Part shown: piece by piece, positions 30,968-59,326 of the stretch
Layout of the letters: every line of letters begins with the position of its first letter
Position numbering within the stretch: position 1 is the stretch's first letter
IMG/VR virus record: IMGVR_UViG_3300021512_000003
Coordinates: 17,889 to 81,888 of that record
Direction: 5' to 3' (one strand)
Origin: a virus
DNA length: 64,000 bases
Program-made: the position numbers and the translations under genes
Notes under the pieces: generated by a model
Databases searched by the model: none
Seen by the model: only the letters and a program-made list of their open reading frames with translations
What the model was told of the DNA's origin: nothing

Positions 30968-31016
30968 TTTGATTTCATCAGTATGACTTTGTGTAGTCTG
31001 TATAGTCCAGTGTTAT
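30968..31016 (+). repeat. 49-bp repeat, copy 1 (attI-like docking site)
   Basis: This sequence is identical over all 49 bases to copy 3 (57401-57449) and closely related to copy 2 (39434-39482). It contains GACTTTGTGTAGTC, a small inverted repeat, and ends GTGTTAT. The copies diverge immediately after GTTAT, which is the core where the first cassette starts. In integrons that position belongs to attI. An alternative reading is a - strand promoter element, discussed in the findings. Confidence 0.7.
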
Positions 31017-31049
31017 AAATAATAACCAAGAACCTAGGAGGTTCTAAAT

Positions 31050-31295
31050 ACGAAACCAATAAACCACCTAAACTATAAAACGATTGAGAAAGACCTCAAC
31101 CAAGCACTACAATCCCACATCTCTTACGAAGATTGGATGGAGTTTATTGTAAGACTTGTAGGCGGCTCGGAAGACATCTACCAGATCAACTACATACTTC
31201 CAACCAGTGCTGGTATTACTACAGAAGTTCCGCTTGCAGAAGCAACTTCTTTATACGTGGGTATAATTCGTCTTGTTGCTCCTCCGCAAGTGTGA
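31050..31295 (+). CDS. Possible + strand cassette gene lacking an ATG (81 aa)
   Basis: An open frame runs from ACG 31050 to TGA 31295 and reads like a real protein (a helical start, then YILPTSAGITTEV). A perfect AGGAGG lies eight bases before the ACG, where an ATG would be expected. It may start at ACG, be a mutated gene, or be a shadow. It overlaps the opposite gene 31219-31431 by 77 bases. It would have the normal integron orientation. Confidence 0.35.
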   Translation, partial: TKPINHLNYKTIEKDLNQALQSHISYEDWMEFIVRLVGGSEDIYQINYILPTSAGITTEVPLAEATSLYVGIIRLVAPPQV

Positions 31296-31431
31296 GTACA
31301 TCCCTGAAAACTTGCTTATCCTCACTACCGTCTGCAAGGAGGATTTTGGGGACGAGGAGGTAATCTACCTCTCCATTGATATGCCTCTTTATGTTGTCCA
31401 GAACTCCTTGAAGTAAAAGTGTATCTATCAT
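31219..31431 (-). CDS. Cassette-borne hypothetical protein (70 aa)
   Basis: ATG 31431 is preceded by AGAGGACAGAG. The soluble protein is Leu/Val rich with an acidic C-terminal helix. It occupies the right half of the first cassette of array 1, antisense to the attC orientation like most other cassette genes here. No family is recognised. A protein-like frame also exists on the opposite strand, so confidence is moderate. Confidence 0.5.
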   Translation of the reverse strand: MIDTLLLQGVLDNIKRHINGEVDYLLVPKILLADGSEDKQVFRDVLTLAEEQQDELYPRIKKLLLQAELL

Positions 31432-31457
31432 ATCTCTGTCCTCTTATCTAAAATTAT

Positions 31458-31515
31458 TTCTAACAAGTTAATGTTGTCGGAATTGCTACGCAATCCGCAA
31501 ATTAAGACGTTATGT
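31458..31515 (+). other. attC-like recombination site (array 1, first)
   Basis: The left box TTCTAAC and right box GTTATGT bracket an imperfect inverted repeat with GGAATTGC-TAC-GCAATCC at its tip. AACAA on the left and GACGTT on the right give the usual orientation, in which a cassette gene would normally end just to the left on the + strand. Confidence 0.75.
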
Positions 31516-31516
31516 G

Positions 31517-31891
31517 TCAGTACTGCTCTCTCATTTGCTGTCGAAGTTGCACAATTTCATTCTTCAGCTTCTCATTTTCCTCCACCAAATCTTGATTCAA
31601 GTCTTTAACTACCTCATCCTTATGGTTGGAGTAAATAGCTTGGCGCAACTCCTTGTAATCATACGTGTGGTTAGCCCTCCCCCCACGGTATCCTTTAAAT
31701 CCATCCATCAAGGCGTTTCGGTAATTTGTCCAGTGATCAGAGTCAACGTAATAACTGACATCAGTATATAAATCGCCCAATACCTCATTCATCAAAGCTA
31801 CAAGTTTGGGTTTAAAGCTGTCCATTATTTTCTGTGCTTCTTCTTTCCCTTGCTCTGTAAGTTCTGGGTATAAAGGATAATCTTCACTCAT
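31517..31891 (-). CDS. Cassette-borne hypothetical protein with C-terminal coiled coil (124 aa)
   Basis: ATG 31891 follows GGGAGAG. The N-terminal part carries helices and a Tyr/Gly-rich middle (FKGYRGGRAN). The last 30 residues (LVEENEKLKNEIVQLRQQM) form a leucine-zipper-like coiled coil. The stop is two bases right of the attC-like core. It fills the second cassette of array 1. Confidence 0.7.
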   Translation of the reverse strand: MSEDYPLYPELTEQGKEEAQKIMDSFKPKLVALMNEVLGDLYTDVSYYVDSDHWTNYRNALMDGFKGYRGGRANHTYDYKELRQAIYSNHKDEVVKDLNQDLVEENEKLKNEIVQLRQQMREQY

Positions 31892-31914
31892 TTTAATCTC
31901 TCCCGTTTAATCGC

Positions 31915-31993
31915 ACATAACAAAGCACTGAAAAATCGGACTGGCAGAAGAGCCAGCCACTTACAATAGGCGCTATACAGCCGCCTGTTACTA
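31915..31993 (+). other. Degenerate attC-like site (right end of array 1)
   Basis: The left box ACATAAC and AAAGCACT...GGACTGGC/GCCAGCC are well formed, but the right core is weak (GTTACTA at 31987) and the outer arms do not pair. Its left half resembles the terminal site of array 3 at 59273. It marks the end of the array. Confidence 0.5.
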
Positions 31994-31997
31994 ACAC

Positions 31998-32207
31998 TTA
32001 TGTATTTGACGGTTCAACTTCTTCGCTAAACTGTAACCCGTATGTAGCACATTCTGTGCAAATTTCAGTTTGAATGTACTCACCTTCTCGGTCGTTAGTT
32101 GTGTTCAGCCCATATCTGCTTACCCTAAAAACTGAGTCGCAGTTGATGCACTTTGCTATATAAGCTCTTTTGTGCTTATTACTATGCCTAATTAACTCCA
32201 CTATCAA
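31998..32207 (-). CDS. Zinc-ribbon-like small protein (69 aa)
   Basis: Two Cys pairs, CINC near residue 20 and CTEC near residue 51, suggest a single zinc ribbon. The rest is basic at the N terminus and acidic at the C terminus. The stop is five bases from the degenerate attC site. The start overlaps the next gene's stop, so it belongs to the phage operon or to a cassette that has lost its right attC. Confidence 0.65.
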   Translation of the reverse strand: MIVELIRHSNKHKRAYIAKCINCDSVFRVSRYGLNTTNDREGEYIQTEICTECATYGLQFSEEVEPSNT

Positions 32208-32424
32208 AACCTCTACTGGTAATATAACAACGGGCTGTTTTGTCTCTCACTTCATACCCCTCACATAACAAAGCGGCTCTTAGCATCTTGATAGTGTCTT
32301 TAATCCTCCTGATAGAGGGGAGCTTCCTGTATTGTGTAAATTTGTGAACCTCTCCAACAGACTCGTATATCCAACCATCACATCTAATTTTAAAACAATC
32401 ACCAACCTTTATACATTGTACCAC
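32188..32424 (-). CDS. Hypothetical protein (78 aa)
   Basis: I use GTG 32424, which overlaps the upstream gene only slightly. The long frame up to 32550 would add a hydrophobic N terminus that is just the other strand phase of the upstream gene. The protein begins MVQCIKVGDCFKIRCDGW and looks like a small beta domain followed by helices. Its function is unknown. Confidence 0.55.
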   Translation of the reverse strand: MVQCIKVGDCFKIRCDGWIYESVGEVHKFTQYRKLPSIRRIKDTIKMLRAALLCEGYEVRDKTARCYITSRGFDSGVN

Positions 32425-32779
32425 AAGGTCTGGCTTTTGTGTTATGTGTTTTCTTGCTTTCTTCTTCAGAGTCACCACCGTCAAGAAACATGTTATCGTA
32501 GTGTTGATGAGGTAAAACAACCACAGAATCACAGGCATTACAGACACCAACCAGTCTTACAAGTCCAGAGCCATCACTAAAAGGTGTATTTCTTAATTGA
32601 AATGTTACATTTTGAAATGACTTGCAAGGACTACAAGCTGCTCTTTTAGTGTCTCCAACCTTCAATGTTTGCTGCATATCTTTGTTGTTAAAACTCAAAC
32701 CCACCCCTCTACTTGTACCATTGTTGTTTGACGTATCTTCATAAAACAAGAGTATAGCACACTTAAAAATTAATGACAA
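32399..32779 (-). CDS. Zinc-ribbon phage protein (126 aa)
   Basis: Cys pairs at CSPC (near residue 49) and CNAC (near 81) enclose FQLRNTPFSDGSG and GVCN segments, a pattern of a widespread small phage zinc-ribbon family that ends in a Pro-His-Gln segment. ATG 32779 overlaps the polymerase stop and has GGAAGG upstream. ATG near 32677 is an alternative. The acidic C terminus is variable. The function is unknown. Confidence 0.65.
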   Translation of the reverse strand: MSLIFKCAILLFYEDTSNNNGTSRGVGLSFNNKDMQQTLKVGDTKRAACSPCKSFQNVTFQLRNTPFSDGSGLVRLVGVCNACDSVVVLPHQHYDNMFLDGGDSEEESKKTHNTKARPCGTMYKGW

Positions 32780-35280
32780 TCCTTCCAGCTTCCTCCAATA
32801 ACGTATCCTGCTGTTAGTGGTACGTTTAGATTAAAATGCTTCCCAGCCTCATTTACAGATTGTGCTGCAAGCTCTCCTGTTGGAGAATAAGCAATATAGT
32901 AATCATCTTTCTTCCCTTTTTTTATGTCACTCCACATAATACCACCTTTCTCCTCTATTGTCTTGAAATTAATTGCTTCTTTTTCTGTAGGAAATGTCCT
33001 TATGTCTACTAATTCTTTACTTACACTATTCTGCCCTTCATCGTGATAAGCAATAGACTGCATGGAACACTTCTTCTTTGTTACATCCTCTTTAAATGGA
33101 TTACCAGAGTAGCCTAGTGCTTTATATTTCCTGTCTAGCCACACCATAGCCCACTTCATGCAGATAACACCTGCTGACTGGAACTTCACATTCAAAAGTG
33201 AGTGTTGACTCCTCGTAGGTAGTTGTCTACCATCTATTGCTGTAAGGAATTTCTTATTATTTGTACTCCACTCTGATTCAACTTGTTGTTTGTATATCGC
33301 AAGAGGTAGTGCATCTTCCCAGAAACTCTCGACCTCTTTCTTCCCTTTTGCCAAGCTCCAGTTCATTTGCTTTGCAGCCCCTGCTGCTGAAGAGCCGTAA
33401 GTTAGTGAGTATTTTAATGTCTTACTGTCATCTCTACTAATACCTTTACTCTCTGCTCTTCTCGAATGAAGGTCCTGTGGCTTCTTAGCTATGAGGGATG
33501 TACAATATGGGTGGCCTTCTGTATCACAGTTCCAAACGTAGTGCCCCTCTATCCTAGCCTCTAGACCATCAGCATCGTACCCCTCTAAGAAAGCGTACCT
33601 TGGGTCTGCCATGAAGAGTGCTCTCATGTGTTCTCCGTACAGACTACTGCTTCGAGGTACGTTAGCTACCCCCTTATGCTGGAATCTTGAGGTAGCACAA
33701 CCACAGGGGTCTGCTGGGGTGGGTATGCGTCCGTCTATGGCTAACCTGCCATGTGAGAGCCACCCTGTAATCCTCTTCTTCTTTTCACTGGCAGGGGAGT
33801 AGATAGAGTTCTTCCTGTGTCTGTATGTAAGCCACTCTACGATGTGCTTTACATACCACACTTTCCTACCTAGCCTTACGAGGTTATCACACAACTCTTT
33901 GTCTGCATTCTTAGTGAAGACAGGGAGGCCAACAACCTTTAATGGTTTGTTGAGTTTATGCTTCAGAAGCTTCTCTCTAAGGCCACTAGGTCTCACTCTC
34001 AAATTAGCACACCTCTCTTTCTCGAAAGGTGTACCTATTGTGGCCTCAATATACCTATCTACAGCAGCTTCAAACTTCTCTTGTGTCAGCTTCTTCTTCT
34101 TACTATCCAGTGTTAGGTCTTTGTCTTTCCAGTTCAGAGGGTTCCACCCCAGTGTTATTAGGTATGCCTTAATGTCTTCTTGGTGAGACAGTAGCATTGG
34201 CTCTGTAGTAACAAGAGACTCTCCCTCTGGTAAGGGGAGATCCCACATCTTATTAAAGATCTCAACCTTTCTTGGAAGGATAAGGGTTTTCTTTACTCTC
34301 TTGCCTACCTCTCTTTCTTCGTGAGCTACAACCCTACCTCCGTGCTTTTCTAAGAATTTAGCTAGATTAGCAGACATAGTACCGTCCCCAACAAATTGTC
34401 CTTTTGGAGGTATGAACTTTTTAGCTTCTGTCTTCCCTATCTTTTTTGGTGGTAGGAGGTGTTCTACATCTTGCTCTATCTTATCCATTTTCTGTGTAAG
34501 ATCTTTTACGCACCACTCAGCAAGCTTAATATTGAACTTAAAGCCGAAGTGTTCTTGTCTTGTTATAACCTCTGCTACAGCCTTCTCTAACTTGTAAGCC
34601 TCACCCCAAGACCACGTACCCCACTCCTTCTGGAGCATCTTGTACACTGCTAGGTTAGCTATACAGTCTTGGATGTTGTAGTAGAGCATGTCTGCACCAA
34701 ACCACGTAAACCTGTCCTCGTCCCACTCTTTTCCATGTCTGAACTCAACCTTAAAAGAGCCTGCTGCTTGAGACATCTTTGCAAGGGAATGTCCACACCA
34801 CCTATCTGGGTTTAACACTTTAGACATAACAAGTGTGTCGTGAATGTATACGTCTTTACCACCTACCGTGTCAGACTCTTCTTTATTGAAGCCAACAGTG
34901 TATGGTTGGTCATAAAGTAGGTCCATTAAGAGAAGGTCGTAGTTAATAATGTTATGACCTATAAGCATCTTTGCCTCGTCTTTGATGAAGGCAGGCACCT
35001 CGCTTAGTGGGTAGTGTGTGTATTCATACTGTGTGTAGTGCTCTAGTGGCACAGTGAGTCCATTCGGGTATGTTGTGGTGTGAGATCTACCGTCAAACAG
35101 TATCTTGTCACCATCACAAAATGCAAACAACTCAGAAGTGGTTGTGTCAAGAAATACAAAGCAATGTGCCTTAAAAGAGGGAAGAAGCTTATATGGCATT
35201 TTGCTGTAGTCAATAGACTCATAATTGAGTAGGTTATTAGCTTCTGCATCAAATATTAACTTCCTTCCTGACATATTCAT
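32770..35280 (-). CDS. Family A DNA polymerase with 3'-5' exonuclease, T7-like (836 aa)
   Basis: The exonuclease motif IFDAEANNLL is at the N terminus, with HNIINYDLLLMDLL and YNIQDCIANL as the second and third motifs. The polymerase motifs follow: EGYDADGLEARIEGHY (A), a Lys-Ser-Tyr/Gly segment KTLKYSLTYGSSAA (B) and AYHDEGQ (C). It is longer than T7 gp5 by about 130 residues, mainly between exonuclease and palm. It is the replicative polymerase. Confidence 0.95.
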   Translation of the reverse strand: MNMSGRKLIFDAEANNLLNYESIDYSKMPYKLLPSFKAHCFVFLDTTTSELFAFCDGDKILFDGRSHTTTYPNGLTVPLEHYTQYEYTHYPLSEVPAFIKDEAKMLIGHNIINYDLLLMDLLYDQPYTVGFNKEESDTVGGKDVYIHDTLVMSKVLNPDRWCGHSLAKMSQAAGSFKVEFRHGKEWDEDRFTWFGADMLYYNIQDCIANLAVYKMLQKEWGTWSWGEAYKLEKAVAEVITRQEHFGFKFNIKLAEWCVKDLTQKMDKIEQDVEHLLPPKKIGKTEAKKFIPPKGQFVGDGTMSANLAKFLEKHGGRVVAHEEREVGKRVKKTLILPRKVEIFNKMWDLPLPEGESLVTTEPMLLSHQEDIKAYLITLGWNPLNWKDKDLTLDSKKKKLTQEKFEAAVDRYIEATIGTPFEKERCANLRVRPSGLREKLLKHKLNKPLKVVGLPVFTKNADKELCDNLVRLGRKVWYVKHIVEWLTYRHRKNSIYSPASEKKKRITGWLSHGRLAIDGRIPTPADPCGCATSRFQHKGVANVPRSSSLYGEHMRALFMADPRYAFLEGYDADGLEARIEGHYVWNCDTEGHPYCTSLIAKKPQDLHSRRAESKGISRDDSKTLKYSLTYGSSAAGAAKQMNWSLAKGKKEVESFWEDALPLAIYKQQVESEWSTNNKKFLTAIDGRQLPTRSQHSLLNVKFQSAGVICMKWAMVWLDRKYKALGYSGNPFKEDVTKKKCSMQSIAYHDEGQNSVSKELVDIRTFPTEKEAINFKTIEEKGGIMWSDIKKGKKDDYYIAYSPTGELAAQSVNEAGKHFNLNVPLTAGYVIGGSWKDCH

Positions 35281-35330
35281 AACCTATAGTTAAAGTAACA
35301 AGCTCCTGCACTGTTTTGCAACTTGTGCAT

Positions 35331-35666: not shown

Positions 35667-35753
35667 ATACACCTCTTATTTTATGTGATCTGTTGTACTG
35701 TGGGTACAAGCATAGCATACAGTACTGTGCGACACAAGTACGTTCCTTTTTCC

Positions 35754-37020: not shown

Positions 37021-37734
37021 CAAATATGTTCAAGGAGGTTCGCTACTACCTCCCCCGCACCACCTCTTAGGTGCTGCTGCTCTAGCTTTCACTAGAAGTT
37101 CAGACTATATCACCATCTCCTTATAAGAGATGCCTTCCATTTCCACCACCAATAGCTTGTGGTGTACGAGCTTACGCTCTAGTCGTTGAGGTTTACTAAC
37201 TTCTTTGTAGTACCCCTAGCCTTGTACCAAGCATCACCTGAGCAATACAGTGAGTTGGTTACAGCATGTTGTACGTTTTCTTGTTGGGATACTACCTCAA
37301 GATTACTTAAAGAGTTATTTACTGTGTTACCATCTATATGGTTTACAACTTCATTTTTATTAAGTTGTCTACCTATATGTACTGAAGCAATTAACCTATG
37401 TAGCATATAAAGCTTATCTTTTAGCCTTACACGCATATAGGGGTTTTTACTTCTTCCCCAGTGCTTGTAAGGTTTTAACCTCTTAATTTGAGGTTTTCTT
37501 GCTATACTATATATGTTACCTTTTAAGTCTACAAAGTATTTATCCATTTCTGGTACTTGCAGTAAATCTTGTTTTGTTAGTCTTACCTGCTGATTGCCCA
37601 TTGTAACATCCTTTTATTGTTCATCATTGTATCACACATAACTACCAAGCTCTACAACTATAAAAAGGCTTTAGGGGTTTCCAGCAATTAAAAAGGTTTG
37701 CAAAGAGAGTCACCTCTCTAGGGCGCTATTGTTA
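37021..37734 (-). ncRNA. Group I self-splicing intron in the helicase gene (714 nt)
   Basis: The helicase frame stops immediately after exon 1 and resumes in phase 714 bases later. The insert carries group I core elements: a GGAAACCCCTAAAGCC-type P4-P6 strand (37667-37689), AACGACTAGAGC (about 37176-37187) and GATATAGTCTGAAC (37098-37111), whose GACTA and TAGTC pair as P7. The 5' exon ends in T and the intron ends in G, as required. An HNH nuclease ORF lies inside. Confidence 0.85.
37179..37601 (-). CDS. Intron-encoded HNH homing endonuclease (140 aa)
   Basis: An N-terminal NUMOD4-like strand region (KYFVDLKGNIYS) is followed by the HNH core: MLHRLIASVHIG, then VVNHIDGNTVNNSLSNLEVVSQQEN, containing His-Ile-Asp-Gly-Asn and Asn-Leu. 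It would cut intronless alleles of the helicase gene and spread the intron. Its stop codon lies in the P7 strand of the intron, a usual economy for intron ORFs. Confidence 0.85.
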   Translation of the reverse strand: MGNQQVRLTKQDLLQVPEMDKYFVDLKGNIYSIARKPQIKRLKPYKHWGRSKNPYMRVRLKDKLYMLHRLIASVHIGRQLNKNEVVNHIDGNTVNNSLSNLEVVSQQENVQHAVTNSLYCSGDAWYKARGTTKKLVNLND

Positions 37735-39433: not shown

Positions 39434-39482
39434 CTTGATTTTACTCCTACGACCTTGCGTAGTCTGTATAGTCCAGTGTTAT
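39434..39482 (+). repeat. 49-bp repeat, copy 2 (attI-like docking site)
   Basis: The right 31 bases, including TAGTCTGTATAGTCCAG and the terminal GTGTTAT, are nearly identical to copies 1 and 3. The left part has several changes but keeps TTGATTT. A GTAAGTG upstream is shared with copy 3. The cassette array begins at the final GTTAT. Confidence 0.7.
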
Positions 39483-39486
39483 AAAC

Positions 39487-39687
39487 CTAATCATTGTTAG
39501 GTTTTGGCTTAAAGTCACCATCAGCATCGCAATGCTCAGGTGGCCACCCATGCTTTCTAATATTCATCGCTCTAAGCGGATACTTTATTAAATACCTATA
39601 GAGCGTCTCAAGCATTAACCCAATACCCACAATAATAAAAAATGTAAGAACTGGACTGTCGCTCATAAATTCATAAATTGTTGTCAT
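39487..39687 (-). CDS. Cassette-borne single-pass membrane protein (66 aa)
   Basis: One membrane helix (PVLTFFIIVGIGLMLETLYRYL, in two halves about residues 12-33) is followed by a basic and then acidic soluble tail. The stop is four bases from the attI-like core and the start lies before the attC-like site at 39710, so it fills the first cassette of array 2. Confidence 0.65.
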   Translation of the reverse strand: MTTIYEFMSDSPVLTFFIIVGIGLMLETLYRYLIKYPLRAMNIRKHGWPPEHCDADGDFKPKPNND

Positions 39688-39709
39688 ATCTATGGCCTGT
39701 TAAGTCGGT

Positions 39710-39781
39710 TTATAACAAAGCAGTCAAGCTGACAGTCTCTACGCTGCGCTTCGTTCCTGCCGCTTACTTATTGCGTTATGT
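39710..39781 (+). other. attC-like site 1 of array 2
   Basis: Left box TTATAAC with AAAG, right box GTTATGT preceded by TTGC. The arms pair imperfectly around a CTACGCTGCGC... centre of about 60 bases. The orientation matches that of classical attC with the expected gene on the left + strand. The TTA of the core is the stop codon of the methyltransferase on its right. Confidence 0.8.
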
Positions 39782-40468
39782 TGCACTAATTCTATCTTGT
39801 GCAATCTTAAAGTATTCTTCATCTAGCTCAATGCCAATAAACTTACGACCAAGGTTTTTACAAGCTACGCCTGTGCTACCGCTACCTAAAAACGGGTCGA
39901 GTATTGTTGCACCTTTATCACTAAACTTTATCAATAGGTATTCCAATAAATCAACTGGCTTTTGTGTTGGGTGTAATTTATTGCCAGTTCTATTGAACTT
40001 TAAAATATTAGGATCACGCTTACCGTTTATAAGTCTACGTCCTTTCTGTATAAAAATAATCATTTCATACTTTGGTGCAAAGTCGGCTTTTAAATCACCC
40101 ATACTAGTGTTGTTCTTTTCCCATATAAGTATATTCTTTATTTTAAATTTTTGCTCTAGTGCTTGCTTGAATTTATCAATATTATGAAAGCTACAAAAAA
40201 CATAATGCGCCGTATTGTCCGCAGCAACTCTAAATAATTCATCAATCCAAACATCAAGCCATCTTAAGTCTTTATCGTTTTTTATCTTACTGTATTTCTC
40301 AATCCTATAGTTACTCTGAAACTCCATACCATATGGCGGGTCGGTCAATATCATATCAACTGAACCATCAGGTATTTCTTTCATTCTTTCTAAGCAGTCT
40401 CCTTGCATCAACCAAGGATTTAGATCTTCTTTTTCTATATCTGCTAGTCGTTCATTTTTGTAGTGCAT
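39776..40468 (-). CDS. Cassette-borne DNA methyltransferase, N6-A/N4-C type (230 aa)
   Basis: Catalytic motif DPPY is at residues 43-46 and the AdoMet-binding motif DPFLGSGSTG is near residue 200, with a Gly-Asp-Cys target-side segment at the start. The order places it with the beta-class DNA amino-methyltransferases. No restriction partner is in the cassette, so it may protect phage DNA from host enzymes. Its TAA stop is formed by the recombination core. A second, different methyltransferase lies at 52391. Confidence 0.85.
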   Translation of the reverse strand: MHYKNERLADIEKEDLNPWLMQGDCLERMKEIPDGSVDMILTDPPYGMEFQSNYRIEKYSKIKNDKDLRWLDVWIDELFRVAADNTAHYVFCSFHNIDKFKQALEQKFKIKNILIWEKNNTSMGDLKADFAPKYEMIIFIQKGRRLINGKRDPNILKFNRTGNKLHPTQKPVDLLEYLLIKFSDKGATILDPFLGSGSTGVACKNLGRKFIGIELDEEYFKIAQDRISAT

Positions 40469-40493
40469 TTTAATCTTTCCTTTAGTTCGTGCA

Positions 40494-40569
40494 ATATAAC
40501 AACAATTTCAAAAAGACACGTACAGTTTGTTCCAAACGTGCCCTTAGCATTTTAAATTAAGGGTTATGT
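40494..40569 (+). other. attC-like site 2 of array 2
   Basis: Boxes ATATAAC (left) and GTTATGT (right) enclose an inverted repeat with GACACGT...ACGTGCC-type arms. It is longer than most sites in this array and ends in AAGGGTTATG, slightly off the GCGTT consensus. Confidence 0.65.
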
Positions 40570-40584
40570 TACTAAACCAAGCGT

Positions 40585-40974
40585 TTACCAACTACATAAA
40601 TCATGCTGTTTATTTAGAGAGTGCATCTCTACATCTTCGCACGTCTCAATATCAAACATTCCAATATGGCAATCACTTGGCTCAATATTTAAAGTCTCAG
40701 CTAGCCATTTGTATGCTTCTTTTCTTTTCATATCTCCAAATTTCCATAATGGATCAAAGGCTCTATGCGCTGCGCTTTTTGCTTTTCTTAGCTCTTTATT
40801 TGCCAACCTACCTAATGGCTTTGTTGTTCCTTTGTGTGTACCAACGTAGGCATCACAACCAACACAAGAGTAAAAACTCAAGCTAAATAAATCCTTTCGG
40901 TGTGGGTAAACTTCCTTTCCTGTAACTGCCTTTGAGAATTGTTTGCAGTATGGGCATGTTGGTGTCAAATTCAT
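40585..40974 (-). CDS. Cassette-borne DUF3268-like zinc-finger protein (129 aa)
   Basis: I use ATG 40974 after AAGGA. An ATG at 41004 would run into the attC site. The protein has CPYC near residue 7, EVYPHRKDL, then a second Cys pair CVGC, GTHKGTTKPLGRLA and AHRAFDPLW, which together match the DUF3268 zinc-finger family found in phages and mobile DNA. Its function is not established. Confidence 0.8.
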   Translation of the reverse strand: MNLTPTCPYCKQFSKAVTGKEVYPHRKDLFSLSFYSCVGCDAYVGTHKGTTKPLGRLANKELRKAKSAAHRAFDPLWKFGDMKRKEAYKWLAETLNIEPSDCHIGMFDIETCEDVEMHSLNKQHDLCSW

Positions 40975-41000
40975 TCTATCAATCCTTTTTAGTGGTGGTA

Positions 41001-41073
41001 ACATAACAAGGTTTTCAAAGCGGACACATTACAGCGTACCGCTTTCATTTAGCCGTTTAAAACGAGGTTAGGT
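41001..41073 (+). other. attC-like site 3 of array 2
   Basis: Left box ACATAAC with AAGG and right box GTTAGGT. The internal arms AAAGCGG and CCGCTTT pair well. The outer right arm (AACGAG) is less regular. Confidence 0.65.
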
Positions 41074-41099
41074 TGCAAAAACAACATTTAAGTTGTCCA

Positions 41100-41297
41100 T
41101 TAAGTGACTGAACGAATATCCAGACTTTTCATGCTTTTTATGTAAAGAACTCTCATACCAGTCGCCATCTCCATTGCAACCTTTAATTCTGCATTATTAG
41201 GCTCGAATCTTGAGTATAAGATAGTATAATCACCATTCAATTCAGGAGAACTCTTACTATTGAGTATAACTTTCTCGCCTGCTTTAAATTTAGCCAT
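41100..41297 (-). CDS. Cassette-borne hypothetical protein (65 aa)
   Basis: ATG 41297 is preceded by AAGGGG. The protein starts MAKFKAGEKVILNSK, the style of a small SH3-like or KOW-like beta domain, and has a Met-rich helix. It occupies cassette four, antisense to the attC orientation. No family is recognised. Confidence 0.65.
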   Translation of the reverse strand: MAKFKAGEKVILNSKSSPELNGDYTILYSRFEPNNAELKVAMEMATGMRVLYIKSMKSLDIRSVT

Positions 41298-41323
41298 AGA
41301 ATAACCCCTTTAATTTAACAGCA

Positions 41324-41382
41324 GCCTAACAAGGCTGCTGTTTTGGAAGCGCTGAAGCGCTCCACAAAGCTTTACGTTATAT
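41324..41382 (+). other. attC-like site 4 of array 2
   Basis: Boxes GCCTAAC and GTTATAT with a perfect GGAAGCGCT-GAAGCGCTCC-type hairpin in the middle. Its central 40 bases are the same as those of the array 3 site at 57689-57747. Confidence 0.8.
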
Positions 41383-41609
41383 GTAATAAGTGTCCACACA
41401 AACTTCAGCATGAATGTGTATCTGGTCTTTTCCACATCTCTATCTAAACCATCTTAAACAGTCGTATACTTAAACCCCCTCACAACAAACCGGACACCCT
41501 TGTGAGGTTAAGCGGTAGCCCACCAAGGAGGAGGGCAAGCACTCAAACTTTACTTACGATTAACACTCAGTTCTGTGGTGGCAATAACTGACCAACCACA
41601 GGAAAGCAT

Positions 41610-41708
41610 ATGGACCCAATTAGCATCATCCTCACCCTTAAAGTCGCAACCCTATCCGTTGCGCTAGTTACTGAACTCGTCAAGCTGTATAAAGAACTTA
41701 GTAAGTAA
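41610..41708 (+). CDS. Very small hydrophobic protein in a cassette otherwise without ORFs (32 aa)
   Basis: ATG 41610 has AGGAAAG upstream. The product MDPISIILTLKVATLSVALV... is one amphipathic or membrane helix. It lies on the + strand, the usual integron orientation, in a 530-base cassette (41377-41909) that has no longer frame. The left half of that cassette has an inverted repeat CCTCACAA/TTGTGAGG (about 41469-41500) and shows no gene, so it may encode an RNA. Confidence 0.4.
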   Translation: MDPISIILTLKVATLSVALVTELVKLYKELSK

Positions 41709-41843
41709 CTAACAATTAGAGTGCAGTACCAAAGATAATCTATAAAACGGTTTCAGAATCCAACTGAATAAAATGGAGTTTAAAATAAATCTTAAATCAG
41801 TAGCGTCTTATCCTCCTTGAGTTTGGCGCTCATTAAATATTAC

Positions 41844-41915
41844 ATCTAACAATCACATTAAGTCACTTCGTTCGGACTGTCGCTGACGCGTCAGCCGCTT
41901 ATGTGGGCGTTATAT
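41844..41915 (+). other. attC-like site 5 of array 2
   Basis: Boxes ATCTAAC with AATCACATTAAG and GTTATAT preceded by GGGC. The core GGACTGTCGCTGACGCGTCAGCC contains GCTGACGCGTCAGC as a perfect palindrome. Confidence 0.75.
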
Positions 41916-42172
41916 CACTCATCCACCCATAAAAGCTTTTTAGTTATTCTGGTTTCAGTCACTTCTTTAGAGGTCTCAATGATCTCTGATTTTGTTTTGA
42001 ACATCACGAACAGCCTCTCAAGCTCTGCGTCGAGTGCTGCATCAAAAATATCACTCATCCCATGATCGGTGGCGTAGTCGCGCATACAAAGGAGTTCTAT
42101 GGTGTAATCTCCCAGCTCACACCCGTCAAGGTGCGCGTATTCGGTCAGAATGTTGTATCTATCTTCGTTCAA
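41915..42172 (-). CDS. Cassette-borne hypothetical acidic protein (85 aa)
   Basis: It reads MNEDRYNILTEYAHLDGCELGDYTIELL at the N terminus and is helical and acidic, ending WVDE. The TGA stop begins at the last base of the right box of the neighbouring site. The compact fit (start 14 bases from the next left box) is typical of the cassettes here. No family is recognised. Confidence 0.65.
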   Translation of the reverse strand: MNEDRYNILTEYAHLDGCELGDYTIELLCMRDYATDHGMSDIFDAALDAELERLFVMFKTKSEIIETSKEVTETRITKKLLWVDE

Positions 42173-42185
42173 AATAACCTCCGTA

Positions 42186-42241
42186 ATCTAACAATCAATT
42201 TAAACCGGATTGCTACGCAACCGCTTAATTGAGCGTTATAA
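42186..42241 (+). other. attC-like site 6 of array 2
   Basis: Boxes ATCTAAC and GTTATAA. The arms AATCAATTTAAACCGGATTGC and GCAACCGCTTAATTGAGC pair with the left arm carrying the extra bases, as in attC of aadA cassettes. The site is almost the same as that at 58787-58842 in array 3. Confidence 0.85.
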
Positions 42242-42250
42242 GGCTTAGCC

Positions 42251-42502
42251 CTAATTCTCTTTCTCCCAATTCCTTTCGCCTTTTTCAAAGGCAACAGCGA
42301 TGTCCAGCACCTCTCTCACGGTTTTTCCGTACTGGTGCTGCGAAGGAAGGCTGAATATCTCAACAGGTACTTTTTCCATACCTGGTTGGCTTCCAATCAA
42401 AGAGTTTTGTTGTATTTTAACGCCACATCCCTCACCTGTGCCGTCTTCCACTAGCATACGCTCTATAAAGTCGATGCGGTCTTTGTCTGTAATTTCGCTC
42501 AT
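42251..42502 (-). CDS. Cassette-borne hypothetical protein, DKDRIDFIE type (83 aa)
   Basis: The protein opens MSEITDKDRIDFIERMLVED, an N-terminal helix pattern seen in small proteins of mobile DNA and phages, then a short beta region and a C-terminal helix with VREVLDIAV. ATG 42502 has AAGGAT upstream. The function is unknown. Confidence 0.7.
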   Translation of the reverse strand: MSEITDKDRIDFIERMLVEDGTGEGCGVKIQQNSLIGSQPGMEKVPVEIFSLPSQHQYGKTVREVLDIAVAFEKGERNWEKEN

Positions 42503-42529
42503 GTTTATATCCTTGGTAGGTAAATCGCC

Positions 42530-42586
42530 TTATAACAAGGCATTGCAGCGGACGCGCTCTGCGCGCCGCATAGTTTTGCGTTAGCT
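42530..42586 (+). other. attC-like site 7 of array 2
   Basis: Boxes TTATAAC and GTTAGCT with TTGC before the core. The centre, GCGGACGC-GCTCT-GCGCGCCGC, forms a strong GC-rich stem. This is one of the clearest sites in the window. Confidence 0.85.
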
Positions 42587-42780
42587 ATCATTAATTACTC
42601 TACGCACTGCACACAATTTATCCCCGACAACGATGTAGCCCGCTTTTATCCGTTGTGTAAACTGGGCGCGTTGCACTCCGATTGCTCGCGCAAATGCGCT
42701 TTGATTCCTTTGAAAGTTTCGGCTATAAAGTCGGCCAGCCTTTTCAGCCCGTCCGCTTTGCATTTTTCGCTAGGTTTCAT
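42581..42780 (-). pseudogene. Frame-disrupted cassette gene for a small HTH-like protein
   Basis: ATG 42780 overlaps the previous stop (ATGA) and starts a frame with KPSEKCKADGLKRLADFIAETFKG that ends early at 42646. The continuation lies in another phase: NQSAFARAIGVQRAQFTQ then VVGDKLCAVRR, which looks like a Cro-type helix-turn-helix, ending at the TAA formed by the recombination core (42581). Joined, they give about 66 residues. A frameshift, a sequencing error or programmed shift near 42705 are possible. Confidence 0.5.
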
Positions 42781-42986
42781 AGTAGATTAGAGTCGATATA
42801 TTCCTGCGCTTCATCCTTGGAAGCGAAGGTGAGCGCACCTTTTTCATCGCTCACATCAGCTCGCGCAATCGAATCATATATTAAAAACGGCCCTGCAAAA
42901 TCAAACCGCCAAAGCCGAGTTGGGTGAAACCTGCATTCCATAACCCAACCCCCTATGTTGTCTGCGTTGCAAATTTCGTGACTCAT
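42777..42986 (-). CDS. Cassette-borne hypothetical protein, first gene of a two-gene cassette (69 aa)
   Basis: ATG 42986 has GAGGAG upstream. The protein has a Trp/Phe-rich beta-like middle (RLWRFDFAGPFLIYD) and a C-terminal helix (SKDEAQEYIDS). Its TGA overlaps the ATG of the next gene, so the cassette is a small operon. It has its own promoter at 43035-43063. Confidence 0.65.
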   Translation of the reverse strand: MSHEICNADNIGGWVMECRFHPTRLWRFDFAGPFLIYDSIARADVSDEKGALTFASKDEAQEYIDSNLL

Positions 42987-43034
42987 GTTGTTTCTCCTCA
43001 GCGCCTTCGGGTCACTCCCTTAGCTCATGTATGT

Positions 43035-43063
43035 ATAGTAATATACACCCCACACACTGTCAA
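43035..43063 (-). promoter_or_regulatory. Sigma70-type promoter inside cassette 8
   Basis: On the - strand TTGACA (43063-43058) and TACTAT (43040-43035) are separated by 17 bases. It points at gene 42777-42986 and lies between that start codon and the attC-like site at 43094, so this cassette can be expressed wherever it lands. Confidence 0.7.
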
Positions 43064-43093
43064 CGAAATGCTATACAAATAATCAAATAAAAT

Positions 43094-43155
43094 AGCTAAC
43101 AAAGCAACTCAAATCCGACTCCGCTGGCGCTTGCGGTTTAGCTGAGGCGTTATGT
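43094..43155 (+). other. attC-like site 8 of array 2
   Basis: Boxes AGCTAAC with AAAGCAACTCAAATCC and GTTATGT preceded by GAGGC. The tip CTCCGCTGGCGCTTGCGG is like the tips of the sites at 58403 and 62257. Confidence 0.8.
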
Positions 43156-43350
43156 GGAAAAACAGGCCTCAAGGGCATCTAAATACTGTGGTAAATTCTC
43201 ATAGTTTCCCGTAAGCTCAGCCGTCTTCCTTTCACTAGCGACTGCTCTTGCTGATGAGAGAACGCGGAGCACTTGATGGCTGGTTCCGCCCTGCCAGCTT
43301 AGTGCTTTTATAGCCTCTTCCAAAAACGGATCTTGTTTATTATTTGTCAT
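43150..43350 (-). CDS. Cassette-borne hypothetical protein (66 aa)
   Basis: A soluble helical protein (FLEEAIKALSW, then VLRVLSSARAVASERKTAEL) with a short Pro/Tyr segment near the end. The TAA stop is the TTA of the attC core read on the - strand. It is the last complete cassette gene of array 2. Confidence 0.65.
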   Translation of the reverse strand: MTNNKQDPFLEEAIKALSWQGGTSHQVLRVLSSARAVASERKTAELTGNYENLPQYLDALEACFST

Positions 43351-43387
43351 ATAGATATACCTATAGTTTATTTGTGGTTATAAATTC

Positions 43388-43428
43388 ACATAACAAGGCA
43401 GTCAAGCAGACTGCTGAAAGCGTTGCTT
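43388..43428 (+). other. Shortened attC-like site (right end of array 2)
   Basis: The left box ACATAAC with AAGGCAGTCAAGCAG is normal. The right core is GTTGCTT, preceded by AAAGC, and the whole site is only 41 bases. It ends the array, 60 bases before the next phage gene stop. Confidence 0.5.
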
Positions 43429-43488
43429 TTTTCAAGTTCTTTGGGGATTTCATGTTTCATTCCTCTTAGTGTAAAGATGTATTTTACC

Positions 43489-52390: not shown

Positions 52391-53113
52391 ATGAGTAAAG
52401 TAACACTGATGCAGGGCGATTGCCTTGAGCGGATGAAGGAGATTGAGAGCGGGTCGGTTGATATGGTATTGACTAGCCCTCCGTATAATATGAACTTGCG
52501 GATACGGAACGGTAGGTACTGCTCCCGCCAAATAGTAAAAGAACTCAGCACGAAATATACTAACTTCCCCGACAATCTCCCCATGAAGGAATACTTCGAG
52601 TTTAATAGAAAAGTTATAAACGAGTGTCTGCGGGTTTCGGATCTTGTCTTTTACAACGTGCAGTTTTTAACCGGAAATAAGCCAGCGTTATTCAAGTTAC
52701 TAGGAGAGTTCAACGAAAAGGTGAAAGAGTTTATCATCTGGGATAAGGGTAACGCGCAGCCTGCAATAGGCAAGGGTGTAATGAACAGTCAGTTTGAGGT
52801 TTTAATTGTGCTACAAAACTCTAAGCCAGAAAGCAGGGCGTTCCAAACTGCGCAGTTTGACCGAGGGACGTTATCAAATGTGTTTGCTATTAAAAGGGGG
52901 AAGAAGGTAGAGAAAACACACGGAGCCACATTCCCGCAGACACTTGCAGAAAAAGTTATATCCTGCTTTTCTGCAAGCGGTTCGACTATTCTTGACCCGT
53001 TCATGGGCAGTGGTACGACTATACTGGCTGCTCAGAATCTCAATCGTAATGGTATAGGGATAGAGCTAGACGAGGGATATTTCAAGATAGCACAGGAGAG
53101 GGTGGGGCAATGA
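52391..53113 (+). CDS. DNA methyltransferase, TSPPY type (240 aa)
   Basis: The catalytic motif TSPPYN is at residues 28-33 and the AdoMet motif DPFMGSGTT near 215, with a target region between. TSPPY is typical of the beta-class N4-cytosine/N6-adenine enzymes. The start (TLMQGDCLERMKEIESGSVDMV) is close in sequence to the cassette methyltransferase at 39776, although the middles differ. Base use is slightly more GC rich than in neighbours. No restriction partner is visible. Confidence 0.85.
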   Translation: MSKVTLMQGDCLERMKEIESGSVDMVLTSPPYNMNLRIRNGRYCSRQIVKELSTKYTNFPDNLPMKEYFEFNRKVINECLRVSDLVFYNVQFLTGNKPALFKLLGEFNEKVKEFIIWDKGNAQPAIGKGVMNSQFEVLIVLQNSKPESRAFQTAQFDRGTLSNVFAIKRGKKVEKTHGATFPQTLAEKVISCFSASGSTILDPFMGSGTTILAAQNLNRNGIGIELDEGYFKIAQERVGQ

Positions 53114-54835: not shown

Positions 54836-54838
54836 GTT

Positions 54839-55282: not shown

Positions 55283-55349
55283 GACAACTCTGATAGGTTA
55301 GAGAGGGCACGTTAGTGGTGTGCATATATTTATTTCACAGGAGAAGAGT

Positions 55350-56039: not shown

Positions 56040-56050
56040 TATACAGTGAA

Positions 56051-56072
56051 GGGGCACAAAGCCCCTTTTTTT
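56051..56072. terminator. Bidirectional Rho-independent terminator between convergent operons
   Basis: GGGGC and GCCCC form a stem with an ACAAA loop, followed by seven Ts on the + strand. It sits between the + gene ending at 56039 and the - gene ending at 56081 and could serve both directions. Confidence 0.85.
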
Positions 56073-56080
56073 ATTACCGA

Positions 56081-56752: not shown

Positions 56753-56786
56753 GGTAAGCCTCTTAGTTATGTGTCTTAGTAGGCAC

Positions 56787-56815
56787 ACTATAACTTAAGA
56801 GGCTCGTAATTGCAA
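56787..56815 (-). promoter_or_regulatory. Promoter for gene 56081-56752
   Basis: On the - strand TTGCAA (56815-56810) and TATAGT (56792-56787) are 17 bases apart. The start site near 56780 excludes the ATG at 56788 and supports translation from 56752. Confidence 0.7.
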
Positions 56816-56834
56816 ATGTTGGTCAGCTAATAGT

Positions 56835-57374: not shown

Positions 57375-57400
57375 TGGAGGCACCCTGTTGTGTGTAAGTG

Positions 57401-57449
57401 TTTGATTTCATCAGTATGACTTTGTGTAGTCTGTATAGTCCAGTGTTAT
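57401..57449 (+). repeat. 49-bp repeat, copy 3 (attI-like docking site)
   Basis: Identical in all 49 bases to copy 1 (30968-31016), 26 kb away. The following bases differ from copy 1 directly after GTTAT. It starts 20-30 bases from the start codon of the ClpP-like gene. Confidence 0.7.
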
Positions 57450-57454
57450 GTGGC

Positions 57455-57664
57455 TTATTGGTTATCCACTTTCACAGTAATAGCGCCATCCAGTGTTATG
57501 CAGTATCTTTCAAGCCCAAGGGAGACTCTGTATTCTGGGTAGCCTTTTCTTAGGCACTCAGCCTCTGTGTAAATTGCTACTGGCGGAATAATGAAGGCGC
57601 AATACAATATGAGTAAGACGGCTGGTGTAACGACAGCTAGTATTATCTTTTCGATTAAAATCAT
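57455..57664 (-). CDS. Cassette-borne membrane protein (69 aa)
   Basis: ATG 57664 follows GGAG. A membrane helix (IILAVVTPAVLLILYCAFII) is at the N terminus and a soluble region with two Cys follows. It fills the first cassette of array 3, with its stop six bases from the 49-bp repeat. No family is recognised. Confidence 0.65.
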   Translation of the reverse strand: MILIEKIILAVVTPAVLLILYCAFIIPPVAIYTEAECLRKGYPEYRVSLGLERYCITLDGAITVKVDNQ

Positions 57665-57688
57665 ATCTTTCTCCGGAGATAAAGCACC

Positions 57689-57747
57689 TCATAACAAGGT
57701 GCTGTTTTGGAAGCGCTGAAGCGCTCCACAAAGCTTTAGTGTTATAA
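57689..57747 (+). other. attC-like site 1 of array 3
   Basis: Boxes TCATAAC with AAGG and GTTATAA preceded by TTTAGT. The central GGAAGCGCTGAAGCGCTCC hairpin is identical to the array 2 site at 41324, so both cassettes probably come from the same pool. Confidence 0.8.
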
Positions 57748-58095
57748 AACTCGATAGGCATGGTAGTAACCAGCCGCGCGTCTTTTAAATGTGCCGATCG
57801 TGGTAATATGCAGTTTTCCAGCGTTAAATTCATTACCATCTGGATCAACCCAGCGGCGAGTATAAAAAACTCGCTCTAGGTACCTCCCTGGCTTGTGTAT
57901 GTCGACCACCTTTAAAATCATTTCCCCGATTCCTTCAGCAACAAGCTCATGATCTCCTGAAGCGGTCGGCTCACTTTTGCACCCTGGAATCCATACGTAA
58001 TCCGAGTAATATTCACCAGTAACGGCATACCATTCATGGGTTCCCGTATAAAACGGGAATTTAACTCTAATATGCTGCCCATTGTGCAATTCCAT
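57742..58095 (-). CDS. Cassette-borne hypothetical protein (117 aa)
   Basis: I use ATG 58095, with GGAGGAG six bases before it. The frame upstream would enter the attC site. The protein is beta-rich and aromatic (WYAVTGEYYSDYVWIPG) and ends with Arg-Val-Leu. Its TAA is formed by the recombination core. No family is recognised. Confidence 0.7.
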   Translation of the reverse strand: MELHNGQHIRVKFPFYTGTHEWYAVTGEYYSDYVWIPGCKSEPTASGDHELVAEGIGEMILKVVDIHKPGRYLERVFYTRRWVDPDGNEFNAGKLHITTIGTFKRRAAGYYHAYRVL

Positions 58096-58112
58096 AACTC
58101 CTCCAAATCGTT

Positions 58113-58178
58113 TTATAACAAGGCGTTTCACGCAGACCGCGCAAAGTGACGCGCGACTGGTGAACTTAGTCGTTAGTT
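58113..58178 (+). other. attC-like site 2 of array 3
   Basis: Boxes TTATAAC with AAGGCGTTTCACGC and GTTAGTT preceded by TTAGTC. The centre GCAGACCGCGCAAAGTGACGCGCGACTGG is GC rich. Confidence 0.7.
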
Positions 58179-58373
58179 TGCTTCGTTATCTATTTGAATT
58201 TTCATTTTTACCCCCCTATACGTAAATTCCGATGGCTCGGTATCTTTGCCTTTTGCAGCGGTGAAGGACTCAAGAAATAAATCCAGACCAAAAACATTAA
58301 GCCCAGCATCCAATATTGCCTGCCCAGTTATACCGGTATTTTTATTGCTCCTTGTGAATTTATTTTGTGACAT
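58173..58373 (-). CDS. Cassette-borne hypothetical protein (66 aa)
   Basis: A polar N terminus (SQNKFTRSNKNTG) precedes a hydrophobic helix (AILDAGLNVFGLDLFLESF) and a Lys-rich C terminus. The TAA stop is the core TTA. No family is recognised. Confidence 0.65.
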   Translation of the reverse strand: MSQNKFTRSNKNTGITGQAILDAGLNVFGLDLFLESFTAAKGKDTEPSEFTYRGVKMKIQIDNEAN

Positions 58374-58402
58374 TTGGTGTTACTCCGTAGGTATTACTGG
58401 CA

Positions 58403-58464
58403 ACCTAACAGTCGCATTAAAATCTAACTTCGCTGGCGCTTCGCAGTTTATGCGAGCGTTAGAG
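58403..58464 (+). other. attC-like site 3 of array 3
   Basis: Boxes ACCTAAC and GTTAGAG preceded by GAGC. The tip CTTCGCTGGCGCTTCGC is closely like that of the site at 43094. Confidence 0.8.
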
Positions 58465-58761
58465 TGCTAAACAGTCTCTTATTTGCTTAGCCTTGCTTTC
58501 CTGCCCTTTTGTGAATGCTCTTCCTTTTTGAACCTCAATGACCCCTAGTATTTCTTCGGCTGTGAATTGCTCTATGCACTCGTCGTCTGATCGGAAGGCG
58601 CATTCTCCATCGAAGGAGATTTTAAGAAATTTGGTAAGATGACATTGTATCGTCGTCATCGCCCCCTCCGCTAAACTCCACACCACCACACTGAAACTGT
58701 CGCTGCTGTAAGCAGTTCGCCCTCCGCCACCGGGTTTTTTAGCGGTTCGTTCTAATCTCAT
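58459..58761 (-). CDS. Cassette-borne hypothetical protein (100 aa)
   Basis: ATG 58761 follows AGGAGCAGGG. A second start, ATG near 58659 after GGAGGGGG, would give 66 residues. The second half (FDGECAFRSDDECIEQFTAEE) is acidic with three Cys and the end is a basic helix. The TAA stop comes from the core. No family is recognised. Confidence 0.65.
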   Translation of the reverse strand: MRLERTAKKPGGGGRTAYSSDSFSVVVWSLAEGAMTTIQCHLTKFLKISFDGECAFRSDDECIEQFTAEEILGVIEVQKGRAFTKGQESKAKQIRDCLAL

Positions 58762-58786
58762 AATCCCTGCTCCTTGTTTAGCCGTA

Positions 58787-58842
58787 ATCTAACAATCAAT
58801 TTAATTCGGATTGCTACGCAACCATTTAGTTGAGCGTTATAA
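58787..58842 (+). other. attC-like site 4 of array 3
   Basis: Boxes ATCTAAC with AATCAATTTAATTCGGATTGC and GTTATAA preceded by GAGC. It is nearly the same as the array 2 site at 42186-42241. Confidence 0.85.
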
Positions 58843-59040
58843 GCTTGGTTCCGGCTTGCTATTAGCTTTCATCTCCTCTCGCTTAACGCAGTGTGCCGGA
58901 ACGTTAATCTCTATCTGCACCATCTGCTCATTGAAATCCACGCCGACTATCTTCCCGACCACACCATTAACTATTACGCGCTCGTGGTGCTTAACGCCTT
59001 CGTCTAAAATGTTTTTGGCTCTAATTGTTTGGCCTATCAT
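58837..59040 (-). CDS. Cassette-borne hypothetical protein (67 aa)
   Basis: ATG 59040 follows AGGAG. The protein is a small beta-rich domain (IVNGVVGKIVGVDFNEQMVQIEI) with an N-terminal strand that recalls OB-like or SH3-like folds and a polar end. The TAA comes from the core. It sits in cassette five. Confidence 0.65.
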   Translation of the reverse strand: MIGQTIRAKNILDEGVKHHERVIVNGVVGKIVGVDFNEQMVQIEINVPAHCVKREEMKANSKPEPSL

Positions 59041-59064
59041 TTCGTTCTCCTGTCTCTGCGAGGG

Positions 59065-59247
59065 TTATGTTCTAAATGTTAGCCCACAAATAATTGCGAT
59101 AATAGAACTAATAATTACAACATTTACAACACGGTTGTTCCTCTCCCGACGATTTTTTTTTGCGAAGTCCTGTGCGTAGCTTAATTCCTGTTTAGTTACA
59201 GGTGTGCCAAGTTTTATGGCTTGGCGTATAGAGAAAAAACTTTTCAC
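59065..59247 (-). CDS. Cassette-borne membrane protein (60 aa)
   Basis: I use GTG 59247, eight bases after GGAG, since a longer frame would enter the attC site. A basic N-terminal half (AQDFAKKNRRERNNR) is followed by a membrane helix (VVNVVIISSIIAIICGL). Its TAA is the TTA of an isolated GTTATGT core at 59064, with no left half of an attC site beside it. Confidence 0.6.
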   Translation of the reverse strand: MKSFFSIRQAIKLGTPVTKQELSYAQDFAKKNRRERNNRVVNVVIISSIIAIICGLTFRT

Positions 59248-59272
59248 TACTGCCACTCCAATATTAAAATAA

Positions 59273-59326
59273 ACATAACAAAGCACTTAAAAATCAGACT
59301 GTCTTCAACTACAAACTACACAGTCA
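59273..59326 (+). other. Degenerate attC-like site (right end of array 3)
   Basis: The left half ACATAAC with AAAGCACTTAAAAATC is normal, and GACTGT/ACAGTC can pair, but no right core is present. The left half resembles the terminal site of array 1. The next phage gene ends at its right edge. Confidence 0.5.

Follow-up and report, generated by a model that had tools for sequence, protein, structure and literature searches.

attC cassette arrays with repeated attI-like head sites in the genome of a predicted contractile-tailed phage

Results

Five attC clusters in one phage record

We analyzed a 64,000-nt stretch of DNA (the window), which is bases 17,889–81,888 of the 81,888-bp IMG/VR virus record IMGVR_UViG_3300021512_000003, together with the first 17,888 bases of the same record (L001; positions there carry this prefix, all others are window positions). 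The record contains five clusters of attC sites, and four of these (A, B, C and E) are headed by an attI-like site. Profiles TIGR02249 and PF00589 gave no match over the whole record, so that the intI gene of a complete integron was not found, and the arrays, with at least two attC sites and no integrase, are clusters of attC sites lacking integron-integrases (CALINs). We interpret this as probably an integrase-less, phage-adapted integron platform that is served by a host integrase in trans. A first-pass annotation of the window had described three arrays of small genes alternating with sites of attC layout. The three arrays were confirmed, but they belong to a set of five clusters.

30968–31998, cluster A, attI-like head of variant A
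39434–43440, cluster B, attI-like head of variant B
57401–59330, cluster C, attI-like head of variant A
62257 over the end of the record to L001:1350, cluster D, no attI observed
L001:4826 to about 8260, cluster E, attI-like head of variant B

The proteins named with PHROGs include a terminase, portal, tail sheath, baseplate parts, DNA polymerase, primase-helicase and exonuclease, which points to a contractile-tailed phage (myophage, 81.8 kb) of lytic make-up. The first and last 127 bases of the record are identical, and the genome therefore closes to 81,761 bp. The best-listed matches of the terminase in the phage collection are approximately 50–56% identical (Aeromonas and Klebsiella phages). 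Megablast of window positions 1–24000 against this collection gave no match, and protein searches with the sheath and terminase found no near relatives.

Detection and folding of attC sites

Naive scans by regular expression and arm pairing were not specific for attC, and a covariance model was used instead. This model (R1) was built from 28 attC sites (30 extracted, two near-duplicates dropped), none from the window, taken from the integron arrays carried by phages MK672802 (Vibrio) and MZ568829 (Shewanella). A search with an attC covariance model was the check proposed in the first-pass annotation, and the outcome did not refute its sites: R1 gave 20 matches at E ≤ 10 in the window and L001, every one on the + strand. 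These represent 19 distinct sites, as 63947 and L001:74 are one site spanning the 127-bp end overlap. Sixteen have E < 0.01, and the weaker three lie at 62257 (0.063), 42530 (0.15) and 57689 (2.1). Thirteen matches fall inside the window, 11 of them in arrays A, B and C. By eye, we added five sites that R1 does not score: 41323, which nearly copies 57689; 40497, which is doubtful; and 31918, 43391 and 59276, array-end sites that are decayed or truncated. The earlier estimate of about 17 sites in the three arrays thus takes in degenerate sites and perhaps the attI-like heads. The individual sites in the window, all on the + strand, are as follows.

31458–31515, + strand, attC A1; R1 36.9 bits, E 3.8e-7
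31914–31998, + strand, degenerate terminal attC of array A, left half kept; by eye, interval closes (score 4), no R1 match
39710–39781, + strand, attC B1, left neighbor of the methyltransferase (MTase) cassette; R1 E 1.5e-4, bottom-strand minimum free energy no better than shuffles
40494–40569, + strand, candidate attC B2, the MTase cassette's own site; no R1 match, circle closure 7
41001–41073, + strand, attC B3; R1 E 2.1e-5
41323–41382, + strand, attC B4, near copy of the 57689 site; by eye, z -2.47, no R1 match at E ≤ 10
41844–41915, + strand, attC B5; R1 E 5e-7
42186–42241, + strand, attC B6; R1 E 4.2e-8, z -4.1
42530–42586, + strand, attC B7; R1 E 0.15
43094–43155, + strand, attC B8; R1 E 0.0023, fold no better than shuffles
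43388–43440, + strand, truncated terminal attC of array B, left half only; interval closes (score 4), no R1 match
57689–57747, + strand, attC C1, near copy of B4; R1 E 2.1, z -2.9
58113–58178, + strand, attC C2; R1 E 0.0077
58403–58464, + strand, attC C3; R1 E 0.0043
58787–58842, + strand, attC C4, family of B6; R1 E 2.3e-6
59273–59330, + strand, truncated terminal attC of array C, left half only; interval does not close (score 1), no R1 match
62257–62315, + strand, attC D1 of cluster D; R1 E 0.063
63947–64000, + strand, attC D2 at the record end, equal to L001:74–129; R1 E 1.1e-7 for the full L001 copy

The sites carry the outer boxes RYYYAAC and GTTRRRY, pairing inner boxes and unpaired bases on one arm, as in attC. 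In the alignment of the phage sites 87.5% of cells are paired, and paired-column covariation is 0.417 versus 0.109 for shuffled columns, and also above slid controls, in an alignment fitted to the model. On folding the bottom strand as DNA, the full attC stem with bulged bases was the best structure in 12 of 20 sites.

As controls, R1 gave four matches at E < 2e-6, plus several weaker matches of which the best has E 0.063, in the published CALIN of Pseudoalteromonas phage H101 (PH101). The published CALIN MW202573 yielded one weak match only (E 0.065), which indicates that R1 misses some real attC sites. There were no matches at E ≤ 1 in 79 stretches from terminase relatives (1.06 Mb). Outside those stretches, attC sites were seen in two of 44 whole terminase-relative records, both approximately 58% identical in the terminase. 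Each has one interval between two attC sites, with circle scores (see below) of 4 and 7, and the attI-like site of the window is absent from both. No model-supported attC was found near non-cassette homologs of the MTase and DUF3268 genes in eight stretches of named Vibrio and Pseudoalteromonas phages (one match, E 0.7), and a pattern search of the viral contig collection for the attC families found none.

Cassettes close as circles and switch at G/TT

In an excised integron cassette, the first bases meet the flank of the cassette's own attC in the circle. Such a match was first noticed by eye and then scored, comparing the head of each interval with the flank of its own attC beyond GTTA/TAAC (the circle-closure score). 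Over 24 intervals, own head–flank pairs have a mean of 4.4, compared to means per head of 0.8–2.0 for other pairings and 0.68 for heads set against flanks neighboring in the array (19 pairs). None of 20,000 permutations reached the observed total (n = 24). The first intervals behind the four attI-like heads score 6, 6, 3 and 5. The A1, D4 and E4 heads are mutual copies. Scores in the integron controls were 5.5 (14 cassettes, 0/20,000), 5.5 (10 cassettes, 0/20,000) and 5.3 (3 cassettes, too few), and H101 scored 5.3 versus 3.0 (3 cassettes, not significant). Closure scored in this way offers a simple signature by which further cases could be found.

We compared 25 junctions and found pairs that share their left or their right side and switch at G/TT. 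The array A head and L001:882 agree in 35/35 bp to the right of G/TT and 1 to the left, whilst the heads of arrays A and C agree in 45/45 to the left and 4 to the right. L001:1344 and L001:7784 have runs in common of 63 to the left and 3 to the right. The same cassette head thus joins the attI-like site in array A and an attC at L001:882. The units are bounded by G/TT and their ends meet in the circle, as in gene cassettes. The independent model, the covariation, the circle closure and the homology breaks at G/TT together uphold the first-pass identification of the hairpin sites as attC. That annotation had further supposed that the sites recombine. Closure and the G/TT breaks support past recombination well, whilst present activity, and the integrase behind it, we infer.

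attI-like head sites

30968–31015, + strand, attI-like head of array A, variant A; crossover after G31012, first cassette closes (score 6)
39434–39481, + strand, attI-like head of array B, variant B; crossover after G39478, first cassette closes (score 6)
57401–57448, + strand, attI-like head of array C, variant A; crossover after G57445, circle score 3

A core of 23 bp ending in G/TTA is exact at all four array heads, and the genome has no other copy of it within 6 substitutions. The head site ends CCAGTG/TT at four of the five clusters, and the four heads align from TTGATTT through G/TTAT before diverging. Two variants can be distinguished: the heads of A and C are identical over 45 bp, with the shared run of 30968 and 57401 stopping 4 nt past G/TT, and those of B and E (L001:4826) over 44 bp. 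Variants A and B share a 28-nt left run with few mismatches. By eye, the heads show no likeness to the Vibrio or Shewanella attI. Searches of the viral contig collection with exact attI words gave no useful match.

Cassette genes mostly run opposite to attC

The array genes in the window, all on the - strand, are as follows.

31219–31431 and 31517–31891, - strand, array A genes; no Pfam match over the cut-off
39487–39687, - strand, first cassette gene of array B
39776–40468, - strand, MTase cassette gene, N6_N4_Mtase (Pfam 8.4e-42); its stop TAA is the complement of the TTA in G/TTA
40585–40974, - strand, DUF3268 zinc-finger cassette gene (Pfam 5.5e-38)
41100–41297, 41915–42172, 42251–42502, 42777–42986 and 43150–43350, - strand, remaining array B genes; weak PHROG matches, function unknown
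57455–57664, 57742–58095, 58173–58373, 58459–58761 and 58837–59040, - strand, array C genes

The array C gene at 57742–58095 matches phrog_30464 (function unknown). A distant blastn search with array C found no match in phages. Nor was there a match for the cassette protein of L001:133–786 among phages or for that of 42251–42502 among plasmids; the other cassette proteins were searched as DNA queries only.

By our own scoring, the main open reading frame (ORF) runs opposite to attC in 20 of 24 intervals, with two in the same direction, one mixed and one without an ORF, and the crossover TTA serves as the stop of seven reversed ORFs. The annotated genes at the attC sites of H101 are also opposite to attC, taking polarity from R1. 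In the control arrays (Vibrio and Shewanella), 34 of 37 annotated genes run with attC, and the three that are reversed all lie in the Vibrio record MK672802 (3/18 there). One of these is a methyltransferase gene (L003, 29527–30195) unrelated to that of the window, the stop of which is likewise fused to the crossover. We had considered that reversed genes were peculiar to phages, and dropped this idea in view of the 3/18 in the Vibrio control integron. Reversed genes are thus frequent in the phage arrays analyzed here but are not confined to phages. Since the reversed genes are read with the surrounding leftward operons, selection for expression would be a sufficient reason for the reversal. 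A cassette promoter (Pc) reading into the array would not serve most genes, because most are read toward attI.

As a side observation, an 18-bp leader, AAGAACCTAGGAGGTTCT, which is self-complementary around a Shine-Dalgarno sequence, occurs in four exact copies (L001:898, L001:6520, L001:7196 and window 31028), all within cassette regions. Three of the copies precede an ATG on the + strand.

The methyltransferase cassette in other phage contigs

A search with the array B MTase found 65 viral loci. Nine of these contain R1 attC matches (17 at E ≤ 1, six of them at E < 0.01 in three loci), and all 17 are on the strand opposite to the MTase. Seven loci from the DUF3268 search gave no R1 match. 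For 42 of the 65 MTase loci, the end of the gene was compared with that in the window. The window and nine contigs (L126–L131, L135, L141 and L160) have the same MTase stop fused to C (TAA/C, the complement of G/TTA), and the sequence past the stop differs in every one of them. The MTase is opposite to attC in all nine. The attC at the stop is model-supported in seven of the ten, namely the window, L129 and L160 (E < 0.01) and L126, L128, L130 and L135 (E 0.05–0.3); L127, L131 and L141 were not scored. L133 has the same last MTase bases, but T follows its stop. The other 32 loci compared contain one match only, weak, in L121 (E 0.066), and in 43 further whole records of the search loci no attC reached E ≤ 0.01, although the route taken misses some known matches.

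The clearest pair is L126 and L127, in which MTase identity ahead of the stop is 98% across the final 50 bp and 93% across 700 bp (protein 96%). Past the stop, identity is 40% in the first 10 bp and the sequences are unrelated onward. The MTase is the only array gene with a readable role, which is probably anti-restriction.

The last 12 bases of the MTase, agtgcaacataa, are alike in the window and ten contigs (L126–L131, L133, L135, L141 and L160), with L141 one base off. Most of these proteins are only 37–47% identical to that of the window, and the DNA is conserved beyond the protein's need. A second N6_N4 methyltransferase gene (52391–53113, + strand) lies outside the arrays, and its product is 37% identical to the cassette MTase.

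A shared attI-like site and 97-residue protein in another phage

A gene for a 97-residue protein (gene97, L001:4532–4825) abuts the attI-like site of array E. On a 36-kb phage contig, G005, there are two attC clusters, and TGTATAGCCCAGTG/TTA occurs twice; these copies resemble the attI-like sites of the window upstream as well. One copy (L173:4928) directly heads the interval ending at the first attC of its cluster (score 4). The other (L174:4894) precedes the first attC supported by the model by approximately 1.2 kb, and one or more further junctions lie between them. Beside L174:4894 is a gene for a 101-residue protein homologous to the gene97 product (44–45% amino acid identity, E 2e-24), alike in position and orientation relative to attI in the two phages. 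Only the start of this homolog remains at the second attI copy.

The terminase, portal and head protein of G005 belong to other PHROGs, and of the ORFs called in the record analyzed, gene97 and the two methyltransferases alone had matches in G005 at E ≤ 1e-3. By protein comparison, G005 is otherwise unrelated to the phage of the window. The gene97 product has no Pfam family, a best PHROG E-value of 0.12 and no match in phage records, and Foldseek with its moderate-confidence structural model found no match in the PDB at E ≤ 0.001.

Another phage, G004, has three attC stretches headed by sites that are alike by eye and resemble inverted attC. We searched 12 records whole, and attC sites (E ≤ 1) were found in eight; PF00589 was absent from all eight, which may be fragments. 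It was present in G002, one of the other four. A motif, TATAGYCCAGTGTTA, was seen at two mismatches in G056, G008 and G010, and was rejected as such matches are near chance.

Discussion

Relation to described phage and chromosomal integrons

The first-pass annotation knew of no described phage with accessory genes arranged as several integron arrays. This is too strong, given what the accessible text of Qi et al. 2023 (PMC9892861) describes. There, 17 CALINs are reported among 21 phages with integron parts, with four temperate phages carrying an integron or intI, and MTase cassettes are reported in phage CALINs. Virulent-phage CALINs such as that of H101 resemble the arrays described here in having attC sites without an integrase, a lytic-type phage, MTase cassettes and genes opposite to attC. 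The H101 cassettes are called alike in direction and typical, and in the text accessible to us we did not find gene-versus-attC polarity stated. Nor did we find there a phage-own attI, whereas the phage of the window has a repeated attI-like site at four of five clusters and a gene linked to it in common with another phage. In a literature search covering sources other than preprints and most subscription journals, we found no report of a repeated attI in a virulent phage or of an attI-linked phage gene in the text accessible, and by titles and opening lines no other papers on phage-borne arrays among the matches listed.

The Shewanella prophage M16-3 (MZ568829) likewise has two arrays in one phage genome with an attI copy each, but it differs in having an integron integrase, a Shewanella-type attI, and genes and attC in the same direction. 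Sedentary chromosomal integrons share the attC architecture and circle closure, and array E, with a divergent gene next to its attI-like head, has a layout like theirs. Unlike them, the phage of the window has no intI, and gene97, a 97-residue unknown, is the divergent gene and occupies the place of intI. Several arrays are present per genome, and the cassette genes are mostly reversed, compared to 3/18 in the Vibrio control.

A platform served in trans and its alternatives

In the mechanism that we propose, an integron integrase supplied by the host or by a co-resident element would act in trans during infection on the folded bottom strands of the attC sites. It would take up circular cassettes at the attI sites of the phage and reshuffle them, and selection on the phage would retain cassettes whose genes lie along the phage operon, here mostly opposite to attC. 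A likely benefit is the quick turnover of small host-interaction genes. There is precedent for such a platform, since IntI1 was active on five of six attC sites tried from virulent phages (PMC9892861, in its accessible text).

Several observations weigh against an active platform. The R1 sites at 39710 and 43094 fold no better than shuffles. Five of 24 intervals score only 1–2 in circle closure, and these include two of the four intervals whose terminal site is decayed. The last attC is decayed in all four attI-headed arrays, its right side being decayed or cut off (31914, 43388, 59273 and L001:8209). We found no pair of closely related genomes of this phage differing by one cassette, and with no close relative found, the comparison of these regions as blocks between related phages was only indirect. 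An exact search with an attI 20-mer in 84,980 species genomes gave no credible match, the sole hit being in a metagenome-assembled genome inside an apparent conjugation gene, and so the partner integrase cannot be named.

The decayed terminal sites and the lack of an integrase also fit passive hitch-hiking, in which pieces of host arrays with their attI were captured repeatedly by illegitimate recombination and the cassettes are now immobile; M16-3, with a host-type attI at each of its two arrays (PMC9892861, accessible text), also speaks for it. We consider this unlikely. Closely similar attI sites and a homologous 97-residue protein recur in an otherwise unrelated phage, whereas the attI 20-mer leads to no integron in species genomes. 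The genes lie mostly along the phage operons and opposite to attC, unlike 34 of 37 control-array genes, and one cassette head stands behind attI in one array and behind attC in another. The hairpins might instead be terminators or other regulatory elements that merely resemble attC, as they lie between short operon genes and several are strong. A terminator, however, explains neither matches to an attC-specific model on one strand only nor closure and switch points at G/TT, and the chance that this accounts for the sites is very small; we rejected this reading. A phage-encoded recombinase or helper that has escaped recognition, with gene97 taking part in recombination, is suggested by the likeness in position and orientation beside attI in two otherwise unrelated phages at 44–45% amino acid identity. 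It is very improbable: the product is too short for a tyrosine recombinase and lacks the Pfam, PHROG (best E 0.12), phage-record and PDB (E ≤ 0.001) matches sought, and the gene abuts only one of four attI copies here and is reduced to its start at the second G005 copy.

The platform served in trans could be one instance of something wider, namely that phages own a branch of integrons. This would comprise an integrase-less platform (a small divergent gene plus a phage attI at several loci), a borrowed host integrase, mostly mirror-oriented cassettes, and otherwise unrelated phages trading small counter-defense genes. We place this wider proposal slightly below even chance, and its odds are lowered by the reversed cassettes in the bacterial control. 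The usual view is that lytic phages acquire their accessory genes chiefly through illegitimate or homologous recombination. If the proposal is true, a dedicated system of site-specific capture that works with a borrowed host enzyme in otherwise unrelated phages would open a new route of phage evolution, connecting bacterial integrons directly with counter-defense in phages and making the origin of many phage orphan genes testable.

Other features of the record

A search of the window with Rfam at gathering thresholds and a tRNA scan returned nothing. Upstream of the window, the gene for the ribonucleotide reductase large chain (L001:1398–4517) contains intein-splicing and LAGLIDADG domains mid-gene. 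The ORF at 37179–37601, an HNH endonuclease adjoining the primase-helicase, is related over 57 residues (35%) to that at L001:12135–12797, and both are perhaps homing endonucleases.

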